Virus record (IMG/VR): IMGVR_UViG_3300010885_043431 | Location: 1 to 47,977 of that record | Origin: a virus | DNA length: 47,977 nt | Direction: 5' to 3' (one strand) | Part shown: in pieces, positions 29,413 to 46,256 of the stretch | Layout of the letters: every line of letters begins with the position of its first letter | Numbering within the stretch: position 1 is the stretch's first letter | Position numbers and translations under genes: made by a program | Notes under the pieces: generated by a model | Database searches by the model: none | What the model was told of the DNA's origin: nothing | What the model saw: only the letters and a program-made list of their open reading frames with translations

Positions 29413-29810
29413 GCACTTGGAACGTTAGCAACCACGTGTTCCAGTTCTATTCGACTGCTGTATGACATACGCTAGCGCTGTATAGCACTGACTCTAATTT
29501 TGCATATCTCATATTTTTCGACCCCCCTCGATTCTAGGAAGCTCGCTGTACTGATACCTATGGGGTGGGGTGCAGGTTTCAAGGCCCATTTAAGGCCTCT
29601 AGCGTGCCCCGTAAGAACCTGCATATATCTCGGTGGTACTACCCCACAGCCGGAGCTCCTGGACCCCGGAATCGCCCCCTAACAGATTCCCATATAGCTA
29701 TTTCTCTAGTAGGGATAGTAAGGCCAACACCTGGACTCATGCGGCCTCGGGGGGGGCTCTCTGTACTTTTGAGAATTGGGGGATGCTCGTACCCGCAAAC
29801 CCCACAGAAA
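29413..29810. other. Gene-free region with a nested inverted repeat
   Basis: No convincing gene on either strand; the open frames here are extensions of shadows. TGCAGGTT (29571-29578) pairs with AACCTGCA (29616-29623). Just outside, GTGGGG (29565-29570) pairs with CCCCAC (29642-29647), giving a nested stem. GGCC-N7-GGCC lies in the loop. A run of nine Gs begins near 29748. Confidence 0.5.
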
Positions 29811-29839
29811 AGGCCGGGGGGAATCGACCTCCCCGGCCT
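29804..29839 (-). terminator. Intrinsic terminator after the Ala-rich gene
   Basis: A 9-bp GC-rich stem (AGGCCGGGG with CCCCGGCCT), followed on the minus strand by TTTTCTG. It lies about 75 bases beyond the stop at 29914. Confidence 0.72.
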
Positions 29840-29913
29840 GTCTGCCGTGCGACCCCTGACCGGACAGCCCCTGTGCATCTGTGGCACAGGGACTGTACCG
29901 GCGGGGCTGTGGA

Positions 29914-30612
29914 CTACCTGCCCGTCTGTGCCGACAGCCAGACGCACACGGTGTCCGTGTTGCACGTGTGCCCCTGTGCCCGCTCCCCTTCCACGTGGGC
30001 GACAACCGCTGCCCACGTGCCCGGGCTCACGTCTGCCCCACGTGCGGGGATCTGCAGGCCGTGTGCCTTCGCGAACCGCTTCAGCGCGTTTAGCGCCACA
30101 GTCCCGGCGGGCTGTACCTTCGCGGCCTTCGCCTGTGCCTGTGGCACGTCGCCCAGCACCATGTCCCCGAATGCCAGCATCGTCATAGGCGCGGCCTGTG
30201 GTGCCTGTGCGGCCTGTGCCACAGGTGCGGCTGCCACCTGCCCGAATGCGGCGGCGGCTGCCTGTGCATCCTTGCGCTGTGTGTGGCGATCGAACGGGGC
30301 GACCTGTGCTGCCCGAATGGCGGCCTTCGCTGCCGTGTCTACGGCCTTCCAAGTGGCCTGATCCATGCCCGTGTGCAGACGATAGGCCGCGTATGCATCG
30401 GCGGCCTCCCATCCGGTGCCGGTGCCCTGTGCTGCCTGTGGCATCACCATGGGCGCGGCCTGTGGCAGCGTAAGCGCCGGGGCTGCCGGGGCTGTCTCCA
30501 CGATCTGCACACCGGGCGCGGTGTGTGCCGACAGGATCGCATGCACAGCGTTGTATGCCGCGTCAGCGGCTGCCTGTGCGATGGTCTCTGTGGTCTGTGC
30601 ATCTGTGAACAT
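29914..30612 (-). CDS. Ala/Gln/Pro-rich protein, 232 aa
   Basis: Strong GGAGG ribosome site and ATG. The composition is dominated by Ala, Gln, Pro and Val (QAAADAAYNAVHAIL, AQAAQAPQAAPMTML). The C-terminal 60 residues look folded (LNALKRFAKAHGLQIPARGADV ... WAAVVAHVEG) and may be a small HTH-like domain. A linker-rich protein of this type could be a DNA- or membrane-tethered regulator. Not recognised. Monocistronic, with its own promoter and terminator. Confidence 0.72.
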   Translation of the reverse strand: MFTDAQTTETIAQAAADAAYNAVHAILSAHTAPGVQIVETAPAAPALTLPQAAPMVMPQAAQGTGTGWEAADAYAAYRLHTGMDQATWKAVDTAAKAAIRAAQVAPFDRHTQRKDAQAAAAAFGQVAAAPVAQAAQAPQAAPMTMLAFGDMVLGDVPQAQAKAAKVQPAGTVALNALKRFAKAHGLQIPARGADVSPGTWAAVVAHVEGERAQGHTCNTDTVCVWLSAQTGR

Positions 30613-30664
30613 TGTGTCCTCCGTGGACAGTGCCGGTAGCGGGGATCGCTGCCGGACAGAACGA

Positions 30665-30693
30665 ACGATACACGACGGTCAGGGTATCCGCAA
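30665..30693 (-). promoter_or_regulatory. Candidate promoter TTGCGG-17-TATCGT
   Basis: On the minus strand, -35 TTGCGG (30693-30688) and -10 TATCGT (30670-30665) are separated by 17 bases. They lie about 50 bases upstream of the ATG at 30612. Confidence 0.5.
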
Positions 30694-30866
30694 GTCCCCT
30701 GCCGCCATGCGGCCTACGGGCTGCCTGCCGCCGATGCCAGGCGCTGCCGCTGCCGACGTGCTGCCCACGTGCCCGGCGCAAAGAACGTACGCATGTATGT
30801 GTGTGTGCAGGTGTGCGCCGCGCACCTATGCCCACGGTCGGGGTTTTCACATGTGTATGTGTACAC

Positions 30867-30955
30867 GATCTGTGCCCGCGACCAGAAATAAATAGGCTCA
30901 TTTGTGTGTGCGTATGATCCGAGTGCGCGACCATGACAAAAAAGGCTCATTCCTG
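30867..30955. repeat. Tandem pair of ~45-bp repeat, copies 1 and 2
   Basis: Both units read, on the plus strand, GATC-N6-CGCGACCA, then an A-rich stretch, then AGGCTCATT. Copy 1 begins at 30867, copy 2 at 30916. Two further copies are at 31771 and 31822. They lie about 255 bases upstream of the minus gene at 30612. Confidence 0.8.
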
Positions 30956-30966
30956 TGGCACAACGC

Positions 30967-31007
30967 AAAACGCCCGCCGCACATGTCCGGGGACACATGG
31001 GCGGGCG
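30967..31007 (-). terminator. Intrinsic terminator after the 119-aa gene
   Basis: Stem CGCCCGCC/GGCGGGCG, with an inner stem CATGTCC/GGACA-CATG, then TTTT on the minus strand (30970-30967). It lies about 30 bases past the stop at 31036. Confidence 0.78.
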
Positions 31008-31035
31008 CTGTGTGCGCTGTGTGACGGTGAGGGTG

Positions 31036-31395
31036 TCAGGCGTTGAGTTCCGTGTGGCAGTCTGCACACACGCTGTGAATGATGAGCGACTGTGCATCTG
31101 TGTCGCCACAGTAGTTGCATGTGGCCTCACGCACTTCGCGCTTGTACGGGTCGCTCTGTCCCCACTTGGCATGTATGCGCTCGGCGACAATGATCCACAG
31201 GCGGATCATGACGACGAGTGGGTCATGCTTGCCCCTGTCAGCGTTGTCACCTGTGGCACTGTGGTAGCGCCTGTCGTCATACGCGATGTATGCGTCGGTC
31301 AGGAAGTTCCACGTACGCGAGTACGGCAGACCCATGAAGGGGTCAGTGTCGGGCTTCATGTAGTTGCTCAGGCGCTGTCGCATTGTGTAGGTCAT
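31036..31395 (-). CDS. Zinc-ribbon protein, 119 aa
   Basis: ATG at 31395 after AAGGAGGG. The C-terminal region has CNYCGDTDAQSLIIHSVCADC (knuckles C-x2-C and C-x2-C), a zinc finger. The body has LSNYMKPDTDPFMGLPYSRTWNFLTDAY and HDPLVVMIRLWIIVAERIHAKWGQ, a helical fold. Longer readings upstream of 31395 run into low-complexity TG/CA sequence and lack support. The partner is unknown. Confidence 0.72.
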   Translation of the reverse strand: MTYTMRQRLSNYMKPDTDPFMGLPYSRTWNFLTDAYIAYDDRRYHSATGDNADRGKHDPLVVMIRLWIIVAERIHAKWGQSDPYKREVREATCNYCGDTDAQSLIIHSVCADCHTELNA

Positions 31396-32065
31396 CTGTG
31401 CCCTCCTTGGGCTGTGCTGTGCAGCGGGTTGCTGGACAGCCGCCGCAGCGTAGCACACTTCGCCCATGCCGCTCCGTTGAGCCAAAAGCGGGGCTGCCGC
31501 TCCCCCACGTGTGCGTGCGTGCGTACGTGTGTACACACATGCACATACGTGTGTGCCTGCATGTGCTTCACATACGTGTGCCCGCATGTGTGCGCCCACA
31601 TACCCGCGTCGCGTATCTTTGCGGCGACACCGAGGGCTTCCCCCATGTACGTGTGTGCACACGTGTGGGGACAGCGGCTCACCGTTCGGGCATGCACGTT
31701 CGTACACATGTGCGTGTGTCATGCGTCCACATTACGTGCGCGGAGAACTATCGCACATGTAGGCACATATGATCTGTGGGCGCGACCAGATCAAAAAAGG
31801 CTCATTCGTGTGTACGCATGTGATCCACGGGCGCGACCAGATTACAAAAGGCTCATTCGTATGTGCGTGTGAGCTCGCGCGCTCGCGTATGTGGAGGTGT
31901 GCGCTTGCGTGGACAGATGTGCGCTCGCGTGGACACGTGTGCACAGAGAGAGACACACATGCACACACATACACAGATGCATGCAGATGTTGCTCCTACG
32001 CTTGCGTGTGTGCGTCGCGTGCATGGGGGAAGCGAGGCCTTGGGAATGGCTTGGTTATGCCAAAC
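31396..32065. other. CA/TG-rich gene-free region with iteron-like repeats
   Basis: No gene is supported. CACATACGTGTG occurs at 31542 and 31569, with a truncated copy at 31597, spaced 27-28 bases. TGTGCGCT-Y-GCGTGGACA occurs at 31898 and 31918. A long hairpin (CCCCA ... ACGTGTG-TG-CACACGT ... TGGGG) is at 31640-31670. The second pair of 45-bp repeats is at 31771-31860. Candidate replication origin or regulatory hub; function unknown. Confidence 0.6.
31771..31860. repeat. Tandem pair of ~45-bp repeat, copies 3 and 4
   Basis: Units begin with GATC at 31771 and 31822 (51 bases apart) and share GCGCGACCAGAT, an A-run and AAGGCTCATTCGT with copies 1 and 2. The pair again lies upstream of a minus-strand gene (start 31395), here by about 375 bases. 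Confidence 0.8.
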
Positions 32066-32095
32066 TTGACACCCTCTGCCGGGTGGTGGTACCTT
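32066..32095 (+). promoter_or_regulatory. Candidate promoter TTGACA-18-TACCTT
   Basis: A consensus TTGACA -35 at 32066-32071 and TACCTT at 32090-32095, separated by 18 bases. Transcription would start near 32102. No start codon with a ribosome site follows in the next 550 bases; a structured region and a terminator do. Confidence 0.5.
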
Positions 32096-32100
32096 TCTGG

Positions 32101-32644
32101 CCTGCCGGTTGGGGTCTGAGGCTCGGTTACACACAAGCCTAAGCACCCGTGAGACTGTCGGCAATCCGCACTCAACGTGTGTACGGGGAACGAGCCTCAG
32201 AGCCGCCCCACACCGTAGGCACACACCTACGGTAGTCCTCTGTTTGACAGAGACGCACACTAGACATGCGGAGCAGGCTGTTGTCCCACAAGGGCCTCAT
32301 GTGTGTGATTGAGTTGTCGCAGCAACTCTCACATACGCCCTCAGACCTGCCGCTGGTAGTCCAGCACCCTGTCCCACACATGACAGGAGAAAGAGGGCGC
32401 TGTGTACAGTGTGTGTGCAGCGTATCGGGATCATGCATGCGGTTAGTCACGCTGTCTGTGGTGTCTTTGAGCACAGACAGGGCGCGGATACACCGGTATG
32501 CATCGCAAGCCAACTGACGCGGCTAGCCCGTGCCTGCTTGCGTAATCCCTACATGTGATGACTGACCGTCGTGCATGTGTGGGAATAAGGACAAGGGAAG
32601 TGCGTACACACACGCTGTGAGACTGTTGTCTCTCACGGCGTTTT
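32101..32644 (+). ncRNA. Candidate large structured noncoding RNA
   Basis: About 540 nt between the promoter at 32066 and the terminator at 32613-32644 contain no supported gene but many strong stems. Examples: 10+7 bp CTGAGGCTCG/CGAGCCTCAG with TACACAC/GTGTGTA inside (32116-32200); ACCGTAGG/CCTACGGT (32212-32233); CTCTG/CAGAG (32238-32252); an 18-bp multi-part stem GGGC, GTGTGTGA, GAGTTG with their partners (32292-32340); CTGTCTGTG/CACAGACAG (32452-32480). The structure looks like the ornate phage RNAs of the ROOL/GOLLD class, but I see no clear homology to them. Confidence 0.5.
32613..32644 (+). terminator. Strong intrinsic terminator
   Basis: 10-bp stem CGCTGTGAGA/TCTCACGGCG (one G-T pair), 8-base loop, followed by TTTTCT. 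It would end a plus-strand transcript from upstream, where there is no gene. Confidence 0.82.
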
Positions 32645-32688
32645 CTGCATGCTCGCACACGTCAGAACATACATCGGCAAGACAACGC

Positions 32689-32830
32689 AGCATGTGACCT
32701 CAAGGAGAGGACTGACACATGTTTGACAGGACACACACATTACCCACAGAGGGTATGCACCCAGGAGTGCACACACAGTCGTGGTTCAGTCAGTCAGACA
32801 CAGGCGCTGGTTCGATTCCAGCACATGCTA
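32689..32830 (+). ncRNA. tRNA-like RNA element with large insertion
   Basis: AGCATGT (32689-32695) is complementary to ACATGCT (32823-32829), a perfect 7-bp acceptor-like stem. Immediately inside lies a D-arm-like CCTC-AAGGA-GAGG (32698-32710). The 3' side has a canonical T-arm, GCTGG-TTCGATT-CCAGC (32806-32822), directly abutting the acceptor strand. Between them are about 95 bases with hairpins TACCC-ACAGA-GGGTA (32741-32755) and TGCAC-CCAGGA-GTGCA (32756-32771). No conventional anticodon arm is seen. No encoded CCA. Confidence 0.45.
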
Positions 32831-32856
32831 TTCCCCATGTGGGGACAATCACCTAG
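32719..32856 (+). CDS. Possible 45-aa ORF overlapping the tRNA-like element
   Basis: ATG after AAGGAGAGG at 11-base spacing gives MFDRTHTLPTEGMHPGV and so on, ending TAG just before the next gene. The same bases form the tRNA-like T-arm and hairpins, so coding and structure compete as explanations. No similarity recognised. Confidence 0.3.
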   Translation: MFDRTHTLPTEGMHPGVHTQSWFSQSDTGAGSIPAHAIPHVGTIT

Positions 32857-32865
32857 GAGGGTGAT

Positions 32866-33087
32866 GTGCGTAGAAAGCGCAAGAAGCAACAATCGCGAGT
32901 CGTGTCCACACGTATGCACATGCGTGGTGGCATCAAGTTCTCTGTGTTCGTGTATGAGGACAGTCCCGTGCACACAGCCCCGCAACCCATGCGCGGTAAG
33001 GCACACAAGATGAAGCGAACGTCGAAGGTCTATGACCCACACGTGAGCCAGCGACCCGTCACAGTGCAGCCCGCACTGGGACACTGA
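32866..33087 (+). CDS. Basic small protein, 73 aa
   Basis: GTG start after AGGAGGGTGAT. Starts RRKRKKQQSR and continues with MRGGIKFSVFVYEDS and GKAHKMKRTSKVYD. Strongly positive, so possibly nucleic-acid binding. First gene of the long plus operon. Not recognised. Confidence 0.65.
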   Translation: MRRKRKKQQSRVVSTRMHMRGGIKFSVFVYEDSPVHTAPQPMRGKAHKMKRTSKVYDPHVSQRPVTVQPALGH

Positions 33088-33098
33088 GGAGACAGATC

Positions 33099-33335
33099 AT
33101 GGATCTGCACTGCACTACGTGTGGAGAGCCACACGAAATCGAGTGTCTGCAAGACGCAGACGAATACGGCCTGACTGTACACAAGGGCAGGATCGTTGAG
33201 TGTTCGGCCTGTGAGTGGCACAGGAAGCGAGGCTTCCCCATGAAACAGGAGGCACAGATGGCAATCGCCATGCATGACATGATGCCTGACGACCCAGATG
33301 GTGTCGCAAGCATGATGGAGGACATGGGCTTCTAG
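33099..33335 (+). CDS. Zinc-finger protein, 78 aa
   Basis: CTTCGEPHEIEC at residues 5-16 and CSACEWHRKRGF near residues 34-45 supply four or five cysteines for a zinc site. Acidic Met-rich tail (MAIAMHDMMPDDPDG). GAGGAGA ribosome site. Confidence 0.7.
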   Translation: MDLHCTTCGEPHEIECLQDADEYGLTVHKGRIVECSACEWHRKRGFPMKQEAQMAIAMHDMMPDDPDGVASMMEDMGF

Positions 33336-33386
33336 CCCTGTCCCACAGAAACCTGACCTCAGCTCGCGTGTCTGCGCGAGTAACCC

Positions 33387-33402
33387 GTTGCACAGAAGCA
33401 AC
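33387..33402 (+). repeat. Small ACAGAA-loop hairpin before a ribosome site
   Basis: GTTGC-ACAGAA-GCAAC, followed by AGAAGGAG and an ATG at 33417. One of a recurring set in this operon. Confidence 0.65.
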
Positions 33403-33416
33403 AGAAGGAGCCTGAC

Positions 33417-33644
33417 ATGAAAGTCAAGCAAAACCCCCTCACGATCCATGTGGTGGCACACACCGCACCCCTGTCCAAGCACGTTCGGATGCTGTCCGAT
33501 CGTCGCTTTGACAACCTGCCTGAGGCAATCGGGCATGCACGTTCGCTTGCTCGCAGGGCAAACGGCCTTGTCGTCGTACGTGGTCGCCGTGGCAACCTGC
33601 ACTACGCATACGACGGCGCAGCACAGCAGCCCAAGCGCGGCTGA
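33417..33644 (+). CDS. Hypothetical protein, 75 aa
   Basis: Contains MLSDRRFDNLPEAIGHARSLARRANGLVVVRGRRGNLHYAY, a small alpha/beta shape with a long basic helix. No motif recognised. Preceded by the hairpin at 33387 and followed by strong hairpins at 33660 and 33690. Confidence 0.65.
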   Translation: MKVKQNPLTIHVVAHTAPLSKHVRMLSDRRFDNLPEAIGHARSLARRANGLVVVRGRRGNLHYAYDGAAQQPKRG

Positions 33645-33659
33645 CACAACACACCCAAC

Positions 33660-33707
33660 GCCCCCGGACACAGAAGTCCGGGGGCATACGTGCTGCACAA
33701 GCAGCAC
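33660..33707 (+). terminator. Paired intergenic hairpins (10 bp and 7 bp)
   Basis: GCCCCCGGAC-ACAGAA-GTCCGGGGGC (33660-33685) is followed at once by GTGCTGC-ACAA-GCAGCAC (33690-33707), then AAAGGAG and the next ATG. No U-tract, so these look more like processing or stability elements than terminators. Confidence 0.6.
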
Positions 33708-33722
33708 AGAAAGGAGCCTGTC

Positions 33723-34274
33723 ATGGCTCTCAACTGCGACTGGGGACAAACCCCCGCATACAGCATCCTCAAGCCCCTGTGGGACAGCGATGCAGACATG
33801 AACGAACAGCGCCCGATTGTCCAACTGCTCAACGGCCTCATGACCGTGGGCATGTGGGTGCCCAACATCTGCTGTGTGCACATGGCAACGATGATGCCGT
33901 CGATCACACAGGACACGATCGCTGAGGTCTACGGCCGTATGCGAACGTGGGAAACCTTCCACGAGAAGGTCATGTTCACAAACGTGGGTGAGTATGACCC
34001 AGACACAGACACCTACACAGAGCCAGAGGATGCCCACAAGGGCTTTCCTCTGTCCCCGTACATGTTGTCTCTGTTCATCGGGTACAAGACCAACTGGGAC
34101 AGCATGACCCGCGCTCGCTGGGTCAAGTCCATGCGTGAGACCCCCGAGTTCGGCAAGTTCACAATCAAGCATGTGAACGCAACGATCGACATGTACGCCG
34201 ATGCATACACGAAGTGGGACAGCGAACACAACGACCCCACACAGAACAACATCGACGCATTCCTCAACGCCTGA
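33723..34274 (+). CDS. Hypothetical protein, 183 aa
   Basis: ATG at 33723 after AAAGGAGCCTGTC. Helical, rich in Met, Trp and Thr (MVPNICC-like core GMWVPNICCVHMATMM; GYKTNWDSMTRARWVKSM). No domain recognised. It is flanked on both sides by GC-rich hairpins, a pattern not seen around most neighbours. Confidence 0.68.
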   Translation: MALNCDWGQTPAYSILKPLWDSDADMNEQRPIVQLLNGLMTVGMWVPNICCVHMATMMPSITQDTIAEVYGRMRTWETFHEKVMFTNVGEYDPDTDTYTEPEDAHKGFPLSPYMLSLFIGYKTNWDSMTRARWVKSMRETPEFGKFTIKHVNATIDMYADAYTKWDSEHNDPTQNNIDAFLNA

Positions 34275-34287
34275 GGCATGCAACACA

Positions 34288-34338
34288 GCCCCGGGGGCAA
34301 TGACTGTCTCCGGGGCACGATCGCCACACAGAAGTGGC
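34288..34338 (+). repeat. Paired intergenic hairpins
   Basis: GCCCCGG/CCGGGGC with a 15-base loop (34288-34316), then GCCAC-ACAGAA-GTGGC (34323-34338), then AGAGAGG and the ATG at 34355. Same order of elements as at 33660-33707. Confidence 0.6.
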
Positions 34339-34354
34339 AGAGAGGCTCACAATC

Positions 34355-34858
34355 ATGAGCAAGCACATCAGTCCGTTCCAGCCCGAGGACAACATGCCTG
34401 ACACAGGCACGTTTGACCTACACCTAGGTGGCAGCACGTGGCTCAAGGGGTTCGACGTATACGCACAGAGCGACCTGTCAGGGTTCCTCGCTCACAATGG
34501 CTACAACGTGTTTGACCACATCGGTCAACACATGGGCTCGATTGACGGCGAGATCGAGGACACTGCGCGCCCTGTGGTGCAGTGGTACATCCGCGAGCAC
34601 GGCGCAGACGTTCTTGAGATACACGAAGACTTCAGTGACCTGTGCAGCAAGGTGCGTGTGCACCCTGACTACAGAGGTGGTGTGATCTGGTCTGTGGATG
34701 ACATCAAGATGGTCGCAGAGGAGTACAGCGTCAGCGCAGAGGCGCTTGACGAACTGGTAGACATGAGAGGCTGGGAAGACCTGTCCACACAGGACGGGTT
34801 TGAGCACAGTATGTACCCACAGGCAAATCAACTCACCAAAGAGGGAGACAAGGCATGA
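34355..34858 (+). CDS. Hypothetical protein, 167 aa
   Basis: MSKHISPFQPEDNMPDTG, then an acidic body (SIDGEIEDTARPVVQWYIREHGADVLEIHEDF). No cysteine cluster. Overlaps the next gene by 4 bases. Not recognised. Confidence 0.67.
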   Translation: MSKHISPFQPEDNMPDTGTFDLHLGGSTWLKGFDVYAQSDLSGFLAHNGYNVFDHIGQHMGSIDGEIEDTARPVVQWYIREHGADVLEIHEDFSDLCSKVRVHPDYRGGVIWSVDDIKMVAEEYSVSAEALDELVDMRGWEDLSTQDGFEHSMYPQANQLTKEGDKA

Positions 34859-35043
34859 GCAGGCGCTGGACAGGTGATGTTCAGTTTGTCGGTGACTACT
34901 TCGTGCTGCGCACCACTGTCACGGAGACAGAGGGCATGAGCGAAGAACAGGTCATTGACAAGGCAAACGAGCGCATGAAAGAACACTATGGCTGGGATGT
35001 GTTCGCGGCATGCAACGAGGCTGAAGTCGAGGAGTGGCACTAA
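34855..35043 (+). CDS. Hypothetical protein, 62 aa
   Basis: ATGA overlap with the preceding gene. A beta start (GDVQFVGDYFVLRTTVTET) then an acidic helix (QVIDKANERMKEHYGW). Unknown. Confidence 0.62.
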   Translation: MSRRWTGDVQFVGDYFVLRTTVTETEGMSEEQVIDKANERMKEHYGWDVFAACNEAEVEEWH

Positions 35044-35243
35044 TGTACAAGACTCTGTACACCTCAGAGAAAGTGCTTGTGCGTCAGCACATGCAGTCAT
35101 GGGAGACCTACAAGGTCACCGTGATACAGGACAGCGGGGTCAAGCGTACCCGCACATTCAGGGGCGAAACCGCGTGGAGCGACACAGAGCGTTTTGCAAC
35201 TGACCACGACATGGCAGCATGGGGCTGCACACAGGAGGCATGA
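35043..35243 (+). CDS. Hypothetical protein, 66 aa
   Basis: ATG shares its A with the preceding stop. Content MYKTLYTSEKVLVRQHMQSW then VIQDSGVKRTRTFRGE. Unknown. Confidence 0.62.
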   Translation: MYKTLYTSEKVLVRQHMQSWETYKVTVIQDSGVKRTRTFRGETAWSDTERFATDHDMAAWGCTQEA

Positions 35244-35244
35244 C

Positions 35245-35505
35245 ATGAGCACTGACCTCAACCCAGATGTGTGGATCAAGGATCTTGTCCACATCGAACA
35301 GAAGTATGGCCTGCTCACATTCGTACGTGCACGTGAGGATGTGGATGAGAAGATCGGCCGTGAAATCACGGACACAGAGTGGGACGCTGTGCGCTCGACT
35401 GTGGCATGGCGCAAGGGCAATGACTGTGAGTTCATCAACAGTCTTGTGAACGAGATCGTGTGGGACGCAATCACAGAAGCAAACATCAACAGAGAGGACA
35501 ACTAA
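35245..35505 (+). CDS. Hypothetical acidic protein, 86 aa
   Basis: ATG after AGGAGGCATGAC. Helical (WIKDLVHIEQKYGLLTFVRA, EKIGREITDTEWDAV). Unknown. Confidence 0.62.
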   Translation: MSTDLNPDVWIKDLVHIEQKYGLLTFVRAREDVDEKIGREITDTEWDAVRSTVAWRKGNDCEFINSLVNEIVWDAITEANINREDN

Positions 35506-35506
35506 C

Positions 35507-35848
35507 ATGTTCACTTACGCAATCATCTACGCAAATGGCACGGACAGCGTGTTCATGTCCGAAACCGTTCCTGACTACAACACGCTCAGGAAGGCTGTCG
35601 GGGGCTGGATCGAAGGTGTGGCACTTGTGGGTGTCACTGCCTACTGCAATGAGGAGGGCAAACTTGAGGGCTTGCCTGTCAATGCACTGGCCACACGCCT
35701 GGCACACAGGGATGAGGCAATCTACCCCAGTGACACAATCAACGGGGACATGATCGTGCTAGGCCCGCTAGACGACGAGGGTGAGTCCACTTCCCTGTCC
35801 GACGAGTGGATCAGGGTCAATCTCACCTCTGTGGGTCAGCTCGCATGA
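35507..35848 (+). CDS. DUF3846-like protein, 113 aa
   Basis: Order of features matches DUF3846: LRKAVGGWIEGVALVG, a YCNEEGKLEGLPVNALATRLA loop, then DTINGDMIVLGP. These are small cytosolic phage/plasmid proteins of unknown function. GAGAGGA ribosome site. Confidence 0.7.
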   Translation: MFTYAIIYANGTDSVFMSETVPDYNTLRKAVGGWIEGVALVGVTAYCNEEGKLEGLPVNALATRLAHRDEAIYPSDTINGDMIVLGPLDDEGESTSLSDEWIRVNLTSVGQLA

Positions 35849-36042
35849 GCGCCATGAAGGCAGCCACAATCATGTGGGTCGTGATCGAGTGTGACCCCAA
35901 GGGTCAGGGCGCAGACGCACCCATGACTGTTTACGGTGTGTTCAGCACAGAGGAGGAGGCTCTTGACTACCTCGCAGAGACACGCAACGACAACCCCGAC
36001 AGGGGCGACGGATGGACAACCGCGCCCCATGTCATCTTCTAA
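35845..36042 (+). CDS. Hypothetical protein, 65 aa
   Basis: ATGA overlap. IMWVVIECDPKGQ, then VYGVFSTEEEALDYLAETRND, a ferredoxin-like beta-alpha pattern. Unknown. Confidence 0.62.
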   Translation: MSAMKAATIMWVVIECDPKGQGADAPMTVYGVFSTEEEALDYLAETRNDNPDRGDGWTTAPHVIF

Positions 36043-36061
36043 GTCCATGGAGGACAATCAC

Positions 36062-36526
36062 ATGACAGAGGACAATCTCGACGCAATGCCCATGAGCAAT
36101 CACACGATCCTTGTGGCATTCGTTGTGCCCGGTGTCGCTCGTGAGCATGCCTGCCTACGCTTGCAGGACATACTGGCACGTGCGTATGGCTGGGCAGGGG
36201 ACAAAGAGGACAACGAAGTCCAACTGTGCATCGATGAGGCATGGTTCCCGAATGATGAGTGTGTGAACCCACACTCGTCAGAGCGTGCGATCTGGCAGCG
36301 CGATGTCACTGCACAGGATCTGATCCGTGCAGAGATGCACAAGATCGTGCCCACAGACCCCACAGAGTACGACCGCAAGTATGCGGAGGTGCGACAGGGT
36401 GAGCCTGTGCTCACGCTGTGGGAGCACGGCATCGAGGACAGCGCACATGCGGCCGCAGAACAGGTGGCCACGCTTGCGTATGGCTTGCGGCTTGCGATCA
36501 TGAAGTCGCTGGACCCGCATAGTTGA
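36062..36526 (+). CDS. Hypothetical protein, 154 aa
   Basis: GGAGGACAATCAC before the ATG. MSNHTILVAFVVPGVAREHACLRLQDIL looks like the beginning of an alpha/beta domain. A helical end HAAAEQVATLAYGLRLAIMK. Unknown. Confidence 0.65.
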   Translation: MTEDNLDAMPMSNHTILVAFVVPGVAREHACLRLQDILARAYGWAGDKEDNEVQLCIDEAWFPNDECVNPHSSERAIWQRDVTAQDLIRAEMHKIVPTDPTEYDRKYAEVRQGEPVLTLWEHGIEDSAHAAAEQVATLAYGLRLAIMKSLDPHS

Positions 36527-36533
36527 GCCAAAG

Positions 36534-36561
36534 TTGCGGGATGCTGTCCCGCTGTGATAAT
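36534..36561 (+). promoter_or_regulatory. Promoter TTGCGG-16-GATAAT with internal dyad
   Basis: -35 TTGCGG (36534) and -10 GATAAT (36556), spacing 16. A perfect dyad, GCGGGA-TGCTG-TCCCGC, covers the spacer and part of the -35, where a regulator could sit. It drives the GP88-like gene at 36671. Confidence 0.55.
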
Positions 36562-36670
36562 CTCAACATCTCCCCTCAGGACAGCCCCGTCATCGACTCA
36601 CGTCGGTGGCGGGGTCTCTCTGAGACACACAAAGTGTGCAACAGATGCACACAGAGCCCAAGGAGGGCGT

Positions 36671-37411
36671 ATGACGTACAAGCTTCTGTCCACAAACAAT
36701 CAGAAGTTCGGCAAGTCGAACGGCAAACACACCTACATGATCGCGGGACTTTCGCTGTCCCCGGCCAGTCGATCTGGCTACAACGTATGCAAGCACAGCA
36801 CAGGCGTGTGTCGCTTGTGTTGTGTGGCTGACTCTGGCGGTGGCCGCTGGGCTGCCGCACAGGCGGCTCGCATCCGCAAGACGCGCATGTTCTTTGAGGA
36901 TCGCGACACGTTCGCACAGACCCTTGCAGATGACCTGCGTAACTTCGCACGTCTGACTGCGAAGAAGGGACACAAGCCCGCTGTGCGGCTCAACACGTTC
37001 AGTGACATTCCATGGGAGCGTGTGCCCCTCACGATTGACGGTCAAAGCACGACTGTCATCGATGCGTTCGCAGACACGATCACGTTCTACGACTACACGA
37101 AGTACCCGTGCACAGCACGGCCGAGCACAGACGAGTATCACCTGACGTACAGCGCATCAGGTGAGAACACAGACAGGTGCAAGGCTGCGCTGGCTGAGGG
37201 TTACAACGTGGCTGTCGTGTTCGACACAAAGCCCAGTCACGCCCTGCCCAGCACGTACTGGGACGGCGTGAGTGTGGTTGACGGTGACAAGGACGACCTG
37301 CGATTCCTTGACCCTCACGGGGTCATCATCGGGCTTCGCGCCAAGCACACACTACGCAGCAACATGGACACATCGTTTGTGTTCAGCGCCAACATCACAC
37401 AGGAGGTGTGA
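36671..37411 (+). CDS. GP88-like phage protein, 246 aa
   Basis: Starts MTYKLLSTNNQKFGKSNG, followed by YNVCKHSTGVCRLCCVADSGG near residues 38-55, a Cys-rich signature of the 'gene product 88' family of actinobacteriophages. Further family features are AARIRKTRMFFEDRDTFAQTLADDL, a VRLNTFSDIPWERV segment and KYPCTARPSTDEYHLTYSASGEN. The function of the family is unknown to me. It has its own promoter and a 100-base leader with a small GTCTC/GAGAC hairpin, so it is probably regulated separately. Confidence 0.75.
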   Translation: MTYKLLSTNNQKFGKSNGKHTYMIAGLSLSPASRSGYNVCKHSTGVCRLCCVADSGGGRWAAAQAARIRKTRMFFEDRDTFAQTLADDLRNFARLTAKKGHKPAVRLNTFSDIPWERVPLTIDGQSTTVIDAFADTITFYDYTKYPCTARPSTDEYHLTYSASGENTDRCKAALAEGYNVAVVFDTKPSHALPSTYWDGVSVVDGDKDDLRFLDPHGVIIGLRAKHTLRSNMDTSFVFSANITQEV

Positions 37412-37412
37412 C

Positions 37413-37643
37413 ATGACCGAGGACAGCAAGGACACTCGGAGCGAGTACACGACGTACACGATCGTGGTACGCAATGACACTGACATCATCGGCGAGGCAC
37501 TTGACCTCTGTGCGGATGGTGTTCAGTTTGTGTGGGCAGACGACGGCGTGTCCCCCAGCGCATTCGCACTGGGCGCAGACCCCACGTCGTGGGACAGGGA
37601 ACCCACTGACACATACCCGCCAGAGCCGGACGAGGAGGTCTGA
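37413..37643 (+). CDS. Hypothetical acidic protein, 76 aa
   Basis: AGGAGGTGTGAC precedes the ATG. TYTIVVRNDTDIIGEALDLCADGVQFVW then an acidic Pro-rich tail. Unknown. Confidence 0.62.
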   Translation: MTEDSKDTRSEYTTYTIVVRNDTDIIGEALDLCADGVQFVWADDGVSPSAFALGADPTSWDREPTDTYPPEPDEEV

Positions 37644-37644
37644 C

Positions 37645-37881
37645 ATGGACAAGAAGTTCCATCAGATGACAGACGAGGAACAGTACGACAGCCTCGTGGA
37701 GAGGCTGCGTGCCATGGACGTGAAGACACACGGCCTGCCCAGGGACACGTACTACGTGTTGCAGTACTCATGGGACGCAATGAGGCACAAGCGACGTGAA
37801 CTCGTCAGTGTCATAGACGAGCTCACGACACTCATGGAGTGGCAATCAACATCCCAACAGGAGGGACAAGACAATGACTGA
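37645..37881 (+). CDS. Hypothetical helical protein, 78 aa
   Basis: GAGGAGGTCTGAC ribosome site. Two helices, MTDEEQYDSLVERLRAM and KRRELVSVIDELTTLMEW. Unknown. Confidence 0.62.
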   Translation: MDKKFHQMTDEEQYDSLVERLRAMDVKTHGLPRDTYYVLQYSWDAMRHKRRELVSVIDELTTLMEWQSTSQQEGQDND

Positions 37882-38185
37882 CAACAAGACAAACTTCGGA
37901 GACACAATCGTGTCTGATCACACAACTTCGACACATCGCGTTGTTGTGATTTCGCCACGTGACACACCCGGTCATGTGTGGGTTGTGTTCAACAACCTGA
38001 TAGGTGAGTACAGGATGGAGATGCGTATGCCACCTCTTGGCAGGCACGACTCTTGGCACTTTCGCAATGCCCTAGAGGGGATCATCAGATGGGCAGACAA
38101 CGAGTCCTTCCCAGCACGTGATGACTTCAAGATGCGCGTGGCACGTGAGCGCATGGAACAGGAAGCACAGGAGGATCAGTCGTGA
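37874..38185 (+). CDS. Hypothetical protein, 103 aa
   Basis: 8-base overlap upstream. Beta-rich start (HRVVVISPRDTPGHVWVVFNN), then a helical charged end. Overlaps the next gene by 4 bases. Confidence 0.62.
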   Translation: MTDNKTNFGDTIVSDHTTSTHRVVVISPRDTPGHVWVVFNNLIGEYRMEMRMPPLGRHDSWHFRNALEGIIRWADNESFPARDDFKMRVARERMEQEAQEDQS

Positions 38186-38505
38186 CTGCGGTCATGCAAA
38201 TCCCCACACCTGAGGGTGTGCCCGTCACTGGCACGCTACGTGCTGACGGTGGCTGGGATATCGGCGAGCACTGTACCCACTGTGGGTGCGACGTGTCGTG
38301 GGGCTCAGGCCTGTACGTCAATCGCATCCCGTCTGGGTGGTCAGAGGGCCTGGGCAGCCCGGAACTGGTGGGGTACATGTGTGCTCAGTGCCAGACGCTG
38401 ACATGCGAGACCTGCAACGAAGAGACACTGGACTACAGCATGAGGGCTGAAGGCGGTGTGGTCTGCGATGAGTGTGCAGACAAGGAGGGTTTGTTCGATG
38501 AGTAA
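38182..38505 (+). CDS. Double zinc-binding protein, 107 aa
   Basis: GTG start. Cysteine pairs CTHCGCD, CAQC, CETCNE and CDECAD give enough ligands for two zinc ions, LIM or ring-like in spacing. Found between two unknowns. It is one of about ten zinc-ribbon genes in the window. Confidence 0.7.
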   Translation: MTAVMQIPTPEGVPVTGTLRADGGWDIGEHCTHCGCDVSWGSGLYVNRIPSGWSEGLGSPELVGYMCAQCQTLTCETCNEETLDYSMRAEGGVVCDECADKEGLFDE

Positions 38506-38899
38506 CATGGACGTTGTATTCTGGGCCTCTGCCGCTGACTGTTCACACGGCGCATGTGCAAGAGAAGACCTCATCATTGTCAAGCACAGCGAGCTCATGC
38601 CTGATGACGTGCGTGGCCTTGATGAGGCATACGAACAGTCGGACGATGGACAGGTCGTTGACATCCTCAGGGCTGTCAGCGAGCGGCCTGCTCCTGCGCC
38701 AATGCATGACCCTGTGGTGCCCGAGGATGTGTTCCGGGACGTGATCGAATACATGGGCAGAAAGCATGCCCCCTACACAGGAGACGTTGAGGGGATCAGC
38801 ACAAGCCTGTCCTCGTTCGACGTGACCTACAGGGACGGCACAATCCTCCGCGTTCACATGAACGTGGAGACACACGCAAACCGCGATCACGCGGACTGA
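38498..38899 (+). CDS. Hypothetical acidic protein, 133 aa
   Basis: The start overlaps the preceding gene. VEYM-type helix (VFRDVIEYMGRKHAPYTG) and acidic stretch (DDVRGLDEAYEQSDDG). Unknown. Confidence 0.62.
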   Translation: MSNMDVVFWASAADCSHGACAREDLIIVKHSELMPDDVRGLDEAYEQSDDGQVVDILRAVSERPAPAPMHDPVVPEDVFRDVIEYMGRKHAPYTGDVEGISTSLSSFDVTYRDGTILRVHMNVETHANRDHAD

Positions 38900-38916
38900 C
38901 CAAGGAGGTCAATCAC

Positions 38917-39243
38917 ATGAACGAGTACAGGATCGAAGCGACCATACGCCGTGTCAATCATGAAATGTTCATGCACAGGAATGGGCTGGACATGCTCGTG
39001 GAAGACGTTGAGTGTCTGACCCCCTATCTGTCCAAGGACAGGGAGTCTTTCTGTTGCTCAGAAAAGCGCTTTCACATGATGGAGTCCGTGGGCTCTAGCA
39101 ACCGTGTGCACATGGGGAGCATCACATGCGTCGTGGAGTGCGATCCCATCGACGAAGAGGATCTGTTGATCCTGTTGGACATGATCGCAAGCAAACACAC
39201 AAGCAGCCACAGCATTGAGGCAATCACCAAGGAGGTGCAGTAG
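38917..39243 (+). CDS. Hypothetical protein, 108 aa
   Basis: AAGGAGGTCAATC precedes the ATG. Contains FCCSEKRFHM and ITCVVECDPIDEEDLLILLDMI. Unknown. Confidence 0.63.
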   Translation: MNEYRIEATIRRVNHEMFMHRNGLDMLVEDVECLTPYLSKDRESFCCSEKRFHMMESVGSSNRVHMGSITCVVECDPIDEEDLLILLDMIASKHTSSHSIEAITKEVQ

Positions 39244-39245
39244 TC

Positions 39246-39803
39246 ATGGGTTACACAACTACATTCGGCGGGGCATTCACGATCGAGCCCCCGCTCAACA
39301 AGCATGAGGTCAAGTACCTCAACAAACTCAACGACACACGCCGTATGTCCAGGAGCAAAGGCCCCTACTACGTGGACGGCGCAGGCTTTGCCGGACAAGA
39401 CAGTGAGCCAGATATCCTTGACTACAATGTCCCGCCTGAGGGTCAGCCCAGCCTGTGGTGTGCGTGGACGGTCTCCGATGACGGCACCCGCATCATGTGG
39501 GACGAGCGTGAGAAGGCATACTGCATGGATGAGTGGCTGTCCTACATCATCGAACACTTCCTGAAGCCCGGTGCTGTCACAAGCGAGCTTGAGGTCATTG
39601 GCAGTGAGGCTTGGGTCAATGGGCCACAGTTTGCGCACTTCACGTACGATCACATCGTGAATGGCACTGTGACTGCCAGCGGCGAAGACCCAGGTGATCT
39701 GTGGGTGCTCATGGTGGAAGACAACGTTGTCCACATTGGATACTCAGTCATCAACTTTGTCACACCTGAGGGTCGTGTTCTGACTGCGAAGGAGACGTGG
39801 TGA
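39246..39803 (+). CDS. Conserved phage protein of unknown function, 185 aa
   Basis: MGYTTTFGGAFTIEPPLNKHEVKYLNKLNDTRRM, then PSLWCAWTVSDDGTRIMWDEREKAY and WLSYIIEHFLKPG. This MGY-start, double-Trp pattern recurs in actinobacteriophage and other phage genomes without known function. Ribosome site AAGGAGG. Confidence 0.7.
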   Translation: MGYTTTFGGAFTIEPPLNKHEVKYLNKLNDTRRMSRSKGPYYVDGAGFAGQDSEPDILDYNVPPEGQPSLWCAWTVSDDGTRIMWDEREKAYCMDEWLSYIIEHFLKPGAVTSELEVIGSEAWVNGPQFAHFTYDHIVNGTVTASGEDPGDLWVLMVEDNVVHIGYSVINFVTPEGRVLTAKETW

Positions 39804-40045
39804 GCGGGCTGGCCACAGTCACGCTGCGCTGGGAGGTCTTTCACACCTTTCAGGTGGCTGTAGACAATGTGGAAGAGGCACAGGCAGCGGCCACAAACGA
39901 GTGGCGCGATCTCATTGGCTGCCAAACGTACAACGGGCAAACGCCCGCCATGTTGGACACGGACGAGGGTGATGCGGTTCCCACGTGGGAGCCAACTGAT
40001 GCTGTCCATGTCTCATGGGACCCAATCACAGAGGTGGAATCATGA
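39800..40045 (+). CDS. Hypothetical protein, 81 aa
   Basis: GTG overlapping the preceding stop (GTGA). WEVFHTFQVAVDNVEEAQAAATNEW suggests a beta-alpha unit. Unknown. Confidence 0.6.
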   Translation: MSGLATVTLRWEVFHTFQVAVDNVEEAQAAATNEWRDLIGCQTYNGQTPAMLDTDEGDAVPTWEPTDAVHVSWDPITEVES

Positions 40046-40497
40046 CCCGCTACGCAAAAGTCTATGGCCGGGGCCTGACACAGGAGATCGTGCAGGCTTA
40101 CCTGCCCAGCAACTACGAGGTTAGAGGCACACACGAAGACGGCGCGATTGTCATCTGTGGTGTTGACAACCTTGGGTGGACACTTGACGACTACGTGATC
40201 CCGCGTTTGGCAAGTGGTAACTACACCGCACATGAGGCCACACAGGATGACCTAGACGAGGTCAGTGTGGGTCTGTGCTATCGCTGCCATGAGATCATTG
40301 AGGAGTTCAGCCTCACTGGTGGCGAGCCCAACATGTGGAAGGACAGTCAAGGCTCTGTGGCATGCGCGGAATGGCATGGCCATGATGAGAATGGCTGGTA
40401 CGCTCCCATGCACAGTCCTGTAGATGACAAGGATCAGACTGTGATACGAGACAGCGATGACAGCTGTCTACAACAACACATTGCCAAGGAGGCATGA
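40042..40497 (+). CDS. Hypothetical protein with Cys/His pairs, 151 aa
   Basis: ATGA overlap. Segments AKVYGRGLTQEIVQAYLPSNYEV, CYRCHEIIEEF and CAEWHGHDENGWYAPMH carry three cysteines and several histidines for a possible metal site. Confidence 0.63.
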   Translation: MTRYAKVYGRGLTQEIVQAYLPSNYEVRGTHEDGAIVICGVDNLGWTLDDYVIPRLASGNYTAHEATQDDLDEVSVGLCYRCHEIIEEFSLTGGEPNMWKDSQGSVACAEWHGHDENGWYAPMHSPVDDKDQTVIRDSDDSCLQQHIAKEA

Positions 40498-40498
40498 C

Positions 40499-40816
40499 AT
40501 GGAAAAGACAGACCGCAACAGGTACAAGGTTGTCAAGCAGACATGGGATCGCCCATGCGAGCACCCCGACTGCGACACGCTGCATCGCAGCCGTGCACGT
40601 TTCAACTGGGTGTCTGTGAGCTATGCGATTGACGGGCGCTCGCGCCACGAATCGTGGCATGAGGTCAAAGACACTGAGTGGATCATCATTGACAAGCTCA
40701 CAGATGAGCGTGCGTTTGACGGTGGTGCTTACGACACCCGACATGAGGCCAAGTACTTCCTAGACCTGAACCTCAAGTGGCTGTGCACCGAGGCTCTTCG
40801 GGCGGCAGCCGTATGA
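40499..40816 (+). CDS. Hypothetical protein, 105 aa
   Basis: AAGGAGGCATGAC precedes the ATG. DRPCEHPDCDTLHRSRARF carries a C-x4-C knot. The end is HEAKYFLDLNLKWLCTEAL. Unknown. Confidence 0.63.
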   Translation: MEKTDRNRYKVVKQTWDRPCEHPDCDTLHRSRARFNWVSVSYAIDGRSRHESWHEVKDTEWIIIDKLTDERAFDGGAYDTRHEAKYFLDLNLKWLCTEALRAAAV

Positions 40817-41061
40817 ACATGACATTCGGCCAGGCGCTAGAGCGCACGTTGTTTGCTGTGGCAATCCTGTTTGCAGTTCTGTGGCTGTGGGGCAAGTTCA
40901 CCACCAAGCCAGACCTGTACGTCAAGCCACCCGCAAACGTGGTACACGATCGCTGCGAGTACGTCAGTGATGGACAACCTTTCTACATCGGTGATGACGA
41001 CAGAACAGACATCGATGCAAACAACAATGGGATCGCATGCGAACCCGAGGACATGAGGTAG
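40813..41061 (+). CDS. Membrane-anchored Excalibur-like protein, 82 aa
   Basis: One transmembrane helix (LFAVAILFAVLWLWG) then an outside segment CEYVSDGQPFY and DIDANNNGIACEPED, close to the Excalibur calcium-binding motif (D-x-D-x-x-G-x-xCE) found in surface proteins of actinobacteria and bacilli. Confidence 0.68.
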   Translation: MNMTFGQALERTLFAVAILFAVLWLWGKFTTKPDLYVKPPANVVHDRCEYVSDGQPFYIGDDDRTDIDANNNGIACEPEDMR

Positions 41062-41065
41062 GCAC

Positions 41066-41539
41066 ATGCCACAGCTTCACATGGTCATGGGTCTGCCACA
41101 AGCAGGCAAGACCGAATACGCAGACACGACAATCAACATCCCAGATGACGCAAGCCTTGTGGGGATCGAGTCCTACAGCAGGGACACGTCAGGTGGGCCA
41201 CGCATGACAAACGATGCGTGGGAGGACATCTACCGTGACATCAACTCGTCCTTTACACAGGGCGAGCACGTTGTGGTTGACGGCAACAACACACAGTCGT
41301 ACAGCCGCAAGGAGATCCTCATGAAGGCGCGTGAGTTCGGTGTAGAACGCACCGTGCTGCACGTGCTGTGCACGCCACCAAGCGTGTGCTACAAGCGGCT
41401 ACAGGCCGCATCGCAGGACAGGTCAAGCACGGGTAAGACAATCCGTCATCAGACCGACATGTTCTTCAGGTCGATGTCAGAGATCCCACACGAAGGATGG
41501 GATCACATCATCTACACACAAGGAGAAGCAGATGTTTGA
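41066..41539 (+). CDS. P-loop kinase, polynucleotide-kinase-like
   Basis: 157 aa. GLPQAGKTEYA near residue 9 is Walker A. EHVVVDGNNTQSYSRKEIL supplies the acidic Walker-B-like strand, and LHVLCTPPSVCYKRLQAAS is the following strand and LID-type helix. This matches small AAA/PNK-type kinases of phages, which phosphorylate nucleic-acid 5' ends or nucleotides. No phosphatase domain is attached. A tRNA or RNA repair role is possible but not shown. Confidence 0.82.
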   Translation: MPQLHMVMGLPQAGKTEYADTTINIPDDASLVGIESYSRDTSGGPRMTNDAWEDIYRDINSSFTQGEHVVVDGNNTQSYSRKEILMKAREFGVERTVLHVLCTPPSVCYKRLQAASQDRSSTGKTIRHQTDMFFRSMSEIPHEGWDHIIYTQGEADV

Positions 41540-41627
41540 TGAGATTTTTTCCGGGCCACAGGGAATATTTGTGTTCGGCGCACTACTGCTGTTGATCGCG
41601 TTAGTACTCACAAAAGACAGGCACTAG
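41532..41627 (+). CDS. 31-aa membrane protein
   Basis: The ATG overlaps the kinase end by 8 bases. One hydrophobic helix (GIFVFGALLLLIALVL) between MFDEIFSGPQ and a basic TKDRH. Small phage membrane proteins of this kind include holins and anchors. No stronger call. Confidence 0.55.
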   Translation: MFDEIFSGPQGIFVFGALLLLIALVLTKDRH

Positions 41628-41639
41628 GAGGTGCACGCA

Positions 41640-42053
41640 ATGACTGAGAACAAACCCGTTCGCAGGTACAAGTACGGATTCTCTCCGTGTTACATGAACG
41701 CGGAGATGGACAAGTTCGTACACAAGCTCATCCCCACACTTCTGCGTAAACTCGCAGACAGACTTGAGCGCACATCGCCACGTTGGGGACTTGGCGCACA
41801 ACTAACCGCAAGGAGAAATGCTTTGACCACTACAATCACAGACTGGCAGATCAAAGAGTCGCTAGGTGGACACCTAGGCAGGCGCAGTTATCTGTGCACC
41901 TGGGCCAATGGTGTGTGTCAACGATTCAGCGCAGACACCTCACGTGAGGCTCGGCGAATCGCAATCGAGTGGGCTGTGCGCTTTGAGATGAGCCCCACTC
42001 GCAGAGCAAACCCCGTGTTCGTCACGTGGGACAAGGAGACTCAGCATGGCTAA
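41640..42053 (+). CDS. Hypothetical basic protein, 137 aa
   Basis: AGGAGGTGCACGCA precedes the ATG. Basic helical body (VHKLIPTLLRKLADRLERTS, ARRIAIEWAVRFEM). Unknown. Confidence 0.63.
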   Translation: MTENKPVRRYKYGFSPCYMNAEMDKFVHKLIPTLLRKLADRLERTSPRWGLGAQLTARRNALTTTITDWQIKESLGGHLGRRSYLCTWANGVCQRFSADTSREARRIAIEWAVRFEMSPTRRANPVFVTWDKETQHG

Positions 42054-42300
42054 GGCAAACGACAAGCGTCGCCGCAAGGCATGGCTCACACGGGTCATGC
42101 GTGGCAACGCAAAGATGGGCAATCCAATGCCCGGATACTCCAAGCTGTACACACAGCCGCAGCCCAAGGGCTGGGAGCTGTCCAGTGCACTCGCAGCACG
42201 TGGTGCTGCACTGCGTGATGAGGTGGACGCGATCGCCAAGAGCATGGGCGACACGTTACCCAAGCCACGCACCCACACGACCCCCAATCGCTGGTTCTAG
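42046..42300 (+). CDS. Hypothetical basic protein, 84 aa
   Basis: 8-base overlap with the gene before. MAKANDKRRRKAWLTRVMRG, a lysine/arginine-rich start, and a helix LAARGAALRDEVDAIAKSM. Unknown. Confidence 0.63.
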   Translation: MAKANDKRRRKAWLTRVMRGNAKMGNPMPGYSKLYTQPQPKGWELSSALAARGAALRDEVDAIAKSMGDTLPKPRTHTTPNRWF

Positions 42301-42339
42301 CCAGCATCTGGCTCTGCTGCAGGGTTTGTCGGTTGCCAT

Positions 42340-42368
42340 TTGACGGCGACCGGCAACCCCAGTAGAGT
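42340..42368 (+). promoter_or_regulatory. Promoter TTGACG-17-TAGAGT
   Basis: -35 TTGACG at 42340 and -10 TAGAGT at 42363, exactly 17 apart. A dyad GGTTGCC/GGCAACC (42331-42357) straddles the -35. It serves the DUF932-like gene at 42426. TANNNT -10 boxes suit an actinobacterial sigma factor. Confidence 0.7.
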
Positions 42369-42425
42369 CCCCCAATCCACAGGGCTAAGAAGCCCACACC
42401 ACAAGTCTCAAAAAGGAGACAGACC

Positions 42426-43688: not shown

Positions 43689-43698
43689 TCATCACACC

Positions 43699-43743
43699 GG
43701 GGAGGGGGCGTGTGCCCTCTCCCCAAAGCGTTGCGCAAGCAAC
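43699..43743 (+). terminator. Hairpin pair after the DUF932-like gene
   Basis: 11-bp stem GGGGAGGGGGC-GTGT-GCCCTCTCCCC (43699-43724), then GTTGC-GCAA-GCAAC (43730-43743; GNRA-type loop), then AGGAG and the ATG at 43759. Same two-hairpin order as at 33660 and 34288. No U-tract. Confidence 0.6.
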
Positions 43744-43758
43744 AGACAGGAGCACATC

Positions 43759-44220
43759 ATGAGCACGAACAAACTTACCGCTATAGCCTCCGAGGGCGCC
43801 ACAGGGTGGGCTGAAATGCACGCCACCAAGTATGCGAGAGCATTCAACATGATCACGCATCTGGAGTCCGCCACGGAGGAGTTGCCCGTGGACACGACAC
43901 ACATGCCGGGCCCATGGTCGATCACATACGGTGGTGACGAGAACATCGACTCTTCGCTGTACTCTAGCCTTGTCACAGCAGCACTCAACTGTGTGATGCA
44001 CAAGGGCCAGTACCTCACAATCACGATTGAGAGTGCACTTGGCGAAAGGGTCGCCTTTGACTGTACGGTGCTCACACAGACCGCCGTGCAGGGCAAGCCA
44101 TGGAGCGATTCGGACTCCCCGCACGTCATGGTCTATGCATGGTATCCGCTGACGGACAGCGTGGGCATAGAGCCGATCAAAATCTATCTGCATCAAATCA
44201 TCAACATCCACTTCCCGTGA
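43759..44220 (+). CDS. Hypothetical protein, 153 aa
   Basis: MSTNKLTAIASEGATGWAEM, then HMPGPWSITYGGDENIDSSL and YLTITIESALGERVAF. Looks like an alpha/beta globular protein without known motif. Confidence 0.64.
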   Translation: MSTNKLTAIASEGATGWAEMHATKYARAFNMITHLESATEELPVDTTHMPGPWSITYGGDENIDSSLYSSLVTAALNCVMHKGQYLTITIESALGERVAFDCTVLTQTAVQGKPWSDSDSPHVMVYAWYPLTDSVGIEPIKIYLHQIINIHFP

Positions 44221-44426
44221 GCGAGCAGATAGAGGCAACACTCACACGGCCTGACCTTGGCAGTCTGGCGTACGTCACGATCGGTGACAAGCGCTGGACT
44301 TTCCCGTGCACAGCACAGGCACATGAGCTCATGCGAAAGCATGGCGAGGTGACTTACGTGCGCAGGTCGTATGGCAACAACGGCTCAACAGAGCACTACC
44401 TCATTGAGACAGGACGGCAATCATGA
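44217..44426 (+). CDS. Hypothetical protein, 69 aa
   Basis: GTGA overlap with the gene before. IEATLTRPDLGSLAYVTIGDKRWTF, then AHELMRKHGEVTYVRR. Unknown. Confidence 0.6.
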   Translation: MSEQIEATLTRPDLGSLAYVTIGDKRWTFPCTAQAHELMRKHGEVTYVRRSYGNNGSTEHYLIETGRQS

Positions 44427-44778: not shown

Positions 44779-44782
44779 CAAC

Positions 44783-45148: not shown

Positions 45149-45150
45149 TC

Positions 45151-45789: not shown

Positions 45790-45800
45790 GGGGAAAAATC

Positions 45801-46247: not shown

Positions 46248-46256
46248 GCCCACTCA

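Follow-up and report, generated by a model that had tools for sequence, protein, structure and literature searches.

To our knowledge, very few large non-coding RNAs are known from bacteria or phages. ROOL, an ornate non-coding phage RNA of ~600 nt, forms a cage, is found near tRNA islands and has no known partner; GOLLD forms a 14-mer cage and its expression rises at lysis (PMC12286853). Both lie near tRNAs, and GOLLD sometimes holds a tRNA or pseudo-tRNA (PMC12286853, PMC6582537). In phage ICP1 a non-coding RNA of ~800 nt is the most abundant transcript (PMC7567579); this RNA and the lncRNAs of phage K, all large and orf-less, have been likened to GOLLD and ROOL by the respective authors (PMC7567579, PMC9241854). 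A tRNA-mimicking module is attributed to the YrlA-type bacterial Y RNAs in the title of a paper cited in PMC9569102. Here we describe a phage locus at which a conserved, putative RNA gene of ~730 bases ends in a tRNA-like domain.

The locus and its relative

The window, by which we mean the whole stretch of DNA analysed (47,977 bp, an IMG/VR virus record), is probably a fragment of the genome of an uncultured phage. Its left part carries genes for phage tail, fibre and head decoration on the minus strand, and its right part many small genes on the plus strand. The RNA locus lies between a minus-strand gene (about 31036-31395) and a plus-strand operon beginning at 32866, with tRNA genes within a few kb; CCA is not encoded in those tRNA genes of either phage that were read. 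The first gene 3′ of the RNA (32866-33087, plus strand) specifies a very basic protein of 73 amino acids (MRRKRKKQQSR...), the synteny of which is kept in the related phage; the two proteins (68-73 residues) share 58% identity over 55 residues and matched no known family. It is a candidate RNA-binding partner or merely the product of the next gene, linked to the RNA by position alone.

The related phage, likewise uncultured, G001 (IMGVR_UViG_3300044825_002891; 89,131 bp, 60% GC), was located through a protein walk. Window positions 116-28435 correspond to G001 26502-1767, and 29505-47970 to 88583-68505; since the window thus maps across both contig ends, the G001 contig may represent a nearly complete genome that is circularly permuted. 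Window positions 32006-32828 are ~80% identical to G001 and the RNA core is ~88-92% identical, with 42 substitutions in the 351 nt of 32338-32688 and 14 in the 169 nt of 32520-32688. This degree of identity stands out because the proteins neighbouring the RNA are only 47-62% identical and matching DNA elsewhere (~66-80%) is mostly at 66-77%; outside the RNA, values of 79-80% are confined to the DUF932 gene and a pair of short stretches.

Several other features of the two genomes deserve mention. The DUF932 protein (42426-43688) is 81-85% identical between the phages, most of its neighbours being at 40-60%, and its relatives occur mainly in actinobacteriophages. A protein of the serine recombinase/DNA invertase family (45151-45789) is 70% identical in G001, and a small protein (40777-41061) has an apparent N-terminal membrane anchor and a C-terminal, excalibur-like DxDxNxxGxxCE motif. 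The stretch 40825-41124, considered as a second RNA for its 79% nucleotide identity to G001, proved to be a conserved protein-coding gene of the ordinary kind, lacking any folding signal. Upstream of the RNA, intergenic stretches hold four copies of a ~28-bp motif (GCGACCAGATNANAAAAGGCTCATTCGT in the best copies) at 30880-30908, 30929-30957, 31784-31812 and 31835-31863, in pairs ~50 bp apart. The same place in G001 has about five copies of a counterpart, GCGACCAGA-N5-TAGGCTCATTCG, and the motif is also listed at L012, about 6450-7250 (minus strand). The chance expectation for this recurrence is about 0, and the copies may be an array of phage promoters or operators. Adjoining the RNA, 31480-32020 contains long alternating purine-pyrimidine runs (GTGTGTACACACATGCACATACG...) in both phages, a composition predicted to be Z-DNA-prone.

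Scans of IMG/VR, phage, plasmid and GTDB records left a homologue set of two sequences. Exact k-mers of invariant stretches found only G001 in IMG/VR. The 15-mer TAAGGACAAGGGAAG occurred in 18 further contigs without extended similarity, the kind with the best score being part of a DNA polymerase gene; four DNA-polymerase-related records gave 17-mer matches, apparently in an unrelated short coding stretch. A two-part pattern hit 12 scattered loci in GTDB genomes, none with extended similarity, and blastn against phage and plasmid records returned nothing of note. Covariance models made from the RNA did not find a second copy, and the 19 kb contig of a third phage in the genus (L041), which probably does not cover the region, gave no match. 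Rfam covariance models, applied at the gathering threshold and at E<=10 with relaxed filters, gave no meaningful match in the window or G001, yrlA included. The first-pass annotation had claimed no homology to ROOL or GOLLD, and targeted searches with GOLLD (RF02032) and ROOL (RF03087) were likewise empty, neither having a cut-off control and that for ROOL no positive control.

Promoter-like site, 5′ region and coding potential

A TTGACA-18-TACCTT promoter-like site had been pointed out ahead of the RNA, and it is present in the sequence: the putative promoter (32066-32095, plus strand) comprises TTGACA at 32066-32071, TGN at 32087-32089 and TACCTT at 32090-32095, with an 18-nt spacer. G001 has a resembling site, TTGACG-17-TACTCT, at the same position; TG-N precedes the -10 box in both phages, and TTGAC and TGN-TAC--T are kept. 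A simple consensus promoter scan gave no score for this site, so the call rests on its conservation in G001.

The 5′ region of the RNA (32101-32204) is fast evolving and poorly conserved. The 10+7 bp stem at 32116-32200, put forward as the longest of the region, forms in the fold of the window and is not kept in the consensus with G001. Measured against column shuffles of the alignment, 32101-32210 shows no structure conservation (z about 0), in a stretch whose divergence is such that structure could be masked by misalignment; in the same test 31960-32090 was not significant.

The description of the ~540 nt as free of genes agrees with the comparison. Single-base indels between the phages at 32233, 32242, 32260, 32311 and 32336 break the frames of 32205-32340, and in G001 stops occur in two of the longer frames. 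Substitutions in the long ungapped stretch follow no consistent third-position pattern, with the exception of a 6/16/6 skew in 32340-32520, which is matched by a single frame, on the minus strand; that frame stays open only from 32446 to 32661 and contains a stop in G001. A protein-coding function of the RNA body is rejected on these grounds, as is a small ORF at 32719-32856 which has a good ribosome site and lacks its start in G001.

Folding energy and conserved structure

The proposal that 32101-32644 is a candidate large structured RNA gains support from its folding energy, from covariation in a homologue and from the lack of a conserved coding frame. The minimum free energy is -236 kcal/mol on the plus strand versus -205±6 in dinucleotide shuffles (z -5.2), and the minus strand gives z -3.7. 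Among 200-nt windows slid along the region, 32200-32399 is the strongest (z -4.9); single windows 3′ of it are unremarkable, that part being held in the consensus by long-range pairs. In the window/G001 alignment 24 pairs are changed on both sides, compared with 9.4±2.4 in column shuffles, which keep local conservation and column content without dinucleotides, and the covariation test suggested in the first-pass annotation is thereby passed in one homologue. Against the same shuffles the consensus fold has an energy z of -8.8 and a structure-conservation-index z of 6.4; drawn from two sequences only, it does not permit proof helix by helix. The signal is found in each sub-block: 32205-32340 (z -6.5; double compensations 6 versus 1.4 shuffled), 32340-32660 (z -6.0; 9 versus 1.8) and 32684-32832 (z -5.2; 7 versus 2.1). 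For the body the consensus energy z is -8.9 on the plus strand and -6.4 on the minus strand, and rightward transcription is therefore favoured.

The boundaries first given need revision at both ends: the conserved block continues past 32644 to about 32829, and the first ~100 nt are its weakly conserved part. From 32205 to about 32829 the fold is kept by selection in the window and G001.

Downstream of the 5′ region, the middle domain (32205-32398) consists of alifold hairpins at 32212-32233, 32235-32254, 32275-32297, 32301-32336, 32352-32365 and 32368-32387, the first, second and fourth of which carry two-sided changes. The large 3′ domain (32399-32678) is closed by helix 32399-32430/32643-32678 and contains a stem at 32433-32503, an element at 32504-32542, an invariant 15-bp hairpin at 32548-32583 and a hairpin at 32612-32641. 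Compensatory change is exemplified by stem 32212-32233, where ACCGTAGG/CCTACGGT becomes GCCGCAAG/CTTGCGGT in G001, and by stem 32453-32479, where TGTCTGTG/CACAGACA becomes CGCCTGTG/CACAGGCG. Of the strong stems noticed at the outset, those near 32292-32340 and 32452-32480 are thus backed by compensatory changes, in 32301-32336 and 32453-32479. The 10-bp terminator that had been placed at the end of the region exists as a stem (32612-32641) and is an internal hairpin: its T tract, which reads GTTTCT in G001, pairs upstream in the long-range helix 32409-32430/32643-32663, and terminator prediction made no call there.

The tRNA-like 3′ domain

A linker, AAGACAACGC (32679-32688), mostly kept in G001, joins the body to a cloverleaf at 32689-32829 (plus strand). 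The tRNA-like element noticed 3′ of the region is accordingly real, starts at 32689 and is part of the same conserved block. Unconstrained folding gives the cloverleaf in both sequences. It has a 7-bp acceptor (32689-32695/32823-32829); GA between acceptor and D stem; a D arm (32698-32710) with a 4-bp stem and the loop AAGGA in the window or AAGGC in G001; and a T arm (32806-32822) with a 5-bp stem and the canonical TTCGATT loop. Between the D and T arms, 93-95 nt apart in both sequences, a branched arm of ~94 nt (32711-32805) stands where a tRNA would have its variable loop and anticodon arm. The basal helix of this arm is CTG/CAG in the window and GCAG/CTGC in G001, the pairing being kept despite the changes. 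The six named helices of the domain show two-sided changes five times, and none of their pairs is broken; when the helices are slid, the count is 0 or 1.

Of the features by which a tRNA is recognised, the domain possesses the 7-bp acceptor, the D arm and the T arm with a TTCRANN loop, and has no 17-nt anticodon arm with U33 and anticodon. Neither ARAGORN nor the Rfam tRNA and tmRNA models made a call on it. A covariance model of the domain built from the window and G001 sequences alone nonetheless matches true tRNAs, namely the window tRNA-Arg at 46257 (E 0.007) and a tRNA-Arg and two tRNA-Met of a distant phage contig, L009 (E about 1e-4). The latter contig (IMGVR_UViG_3300032249_000542, 1-17043) carries 18 tRNA genes in an array and encodes a tmRNA of its own, with the tag ANDAFYGEDRLAA. 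No CCA is encoded in the domain. Position 8 carries G in place of U and the base that follows the acceptor differs (A vs U), both of which argue against aminoacylation. A tRNA interrupted by an intron was rejected, since the sequence allows no U33-type loop to be reconstructed and since the arm forms base pairs of its own in both phages. As modelled, 32689-32829 is a tRNA-shaped domain that would be unable to decode.

Proposed function and alternatives

The explanation that best accounts for the whole locus, and which we regard as reasonably probable, is a dedicated phage non-coding RNA gene with a non-decoding tRNA-like 3′ module. Transcription from the promoter at 32066-32095 would proceed rightward from about 32101, and the transcript would fold into the variable 5′ region, the middle domain, the large closed 3′ domain and the tRNA-like domain ending at about 32829. 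Judging from the tRNA-like fold and general knowledge, host RNase P would cut before 32689 (after 32688), and host 3′-processing and CCA-adding enzymes would treat the 3′ domain like the CCA-less tRNAs of the phage. The module would set and protect the RNA ends without decoding, giving the body a defined 3′ end; that it serves host tRNA-type processing is, from its modelled shape, probable. By analogy with GOLLD, ROOL and the ICP1 transcript, the body may be an abundant structural RNA of lytic growth, possibly self-assembling or bound to the basic protein encoded beside it.

More tentatively, the locus might exemplify a new class of giant phage RNA. Its ornate and possibly self-assembling body would be linked covalently to the non-decoding tRNA-like domain, and the phage would thereby enlist the tRNA machinery of the host (RNase P, CCA addition, perhaps EF-Tu or the ribosome) to finish, protect or deliver the large structural RNA.

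The block could instead be the long structured leader, or untranslated start, of the operon at 32866, regulating it in cis. Terminator prediction gave no call in 32829-32866, the synteny of the following gene is shared by the two phages, and in the window a small hairpin (ATCACC-TAGGAG-GGTGAT) covers the ribosome site of that gene. We nevertheless consider a leader unlikely: the hairpin is not kept in G001, the 32866 gene is less conserved than the RNA, and a conserved fold of 730 nt with a processing-type tRNA-like end is far above the usual leader. Slightly less likely still are two adjacent RNAs, an ornate one at about 32101-32680 and a separate tRNA-like one at 32689-32829, merely co-transcribed or with separate functions, for example as a decoy that engages host proteins which cleave or bind tRNA. 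The tRNA-like domain does fold and covary alone behind its 10-nt linker, and RNase P cleavage would split the two parts, but they share a single block of unbroken conservation, preceded by one promoter-like site that is itself conserved. A GOLLD or ROOL so divergent that the Rfam models miss it is very improbable, for despite the similar size, the phage location, the nearby tRNA genes and a weakly conserved 5′ with a strongly conserved 3′ portion as described for GOLLD (PMC12286853), neither sequence matched any family at E<=10 with relaxed filters, the targeted searches (that for ROOL without a positive control) were empty, and the tRNA-like element occupies the 3′ terminus instead of an internal linker.

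If the preferred reading of a dedicated RNA gene holds, the existence of an apparently unrelated RNA, comparable in size and setting and ending in a tRNA-like module, would point to more than one origin of giant phage RNAs and to a functional basis for their recurring association with tRNAs. The tRNA-like terminus offers a direct biochemical handle, through RNase P cleavage and CCA addition.

Comparison with known large RNAs

The tRNA-mimicking module of YrlA-type Y RNAs lacks an anticodon, a property shared with the domain described here, whereas the present domain has the ordinary tRNA order with open acceptor ends and no Rfam yrlA match. With tmRNA (ssrA) the locus shares a tRNA acceptor and T arm and a long RNA region in place of the anticodon arm. 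It differs in possessing a D stem, in having no conserved tag frame and in the third acceptor pair, which is C-G and without the G3-U70 alanine signal; identity with tmRNA is not supported, given this pair and the only ATG frame (32719-32856), which has no start in G001. We found no description in the open-access papers searched of a terminal non-decoding tRNA-like domain with a replaced anticodon arm.

The transcripts of ICP1 and phage K are similar by description, as large orf-less phage RNAs; ICP1 differs in having no tRNAs. ROOL is similar as a large ornate non-coding phage RNA near tRNAs, and differs in that its covariance model gives no match. The likeness to GOLLD comprises phage carriage, a length of ~700-800+ nt, an elaborate fold, proximity to tRNAs and a variable 5′ with a conserved 3′ part; there is no match in sequence and structure, and here the tRNA-like element is terminal, with an arm of ~94 nt replacing the anticodon arm. 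The RNA is thus like the giant ornate phage RNAs in kind and, by covariance model, a member of none of them. By this analogy, and with no recognisable homology to GOLLD or ROOL, it may be a new counterpart of both.
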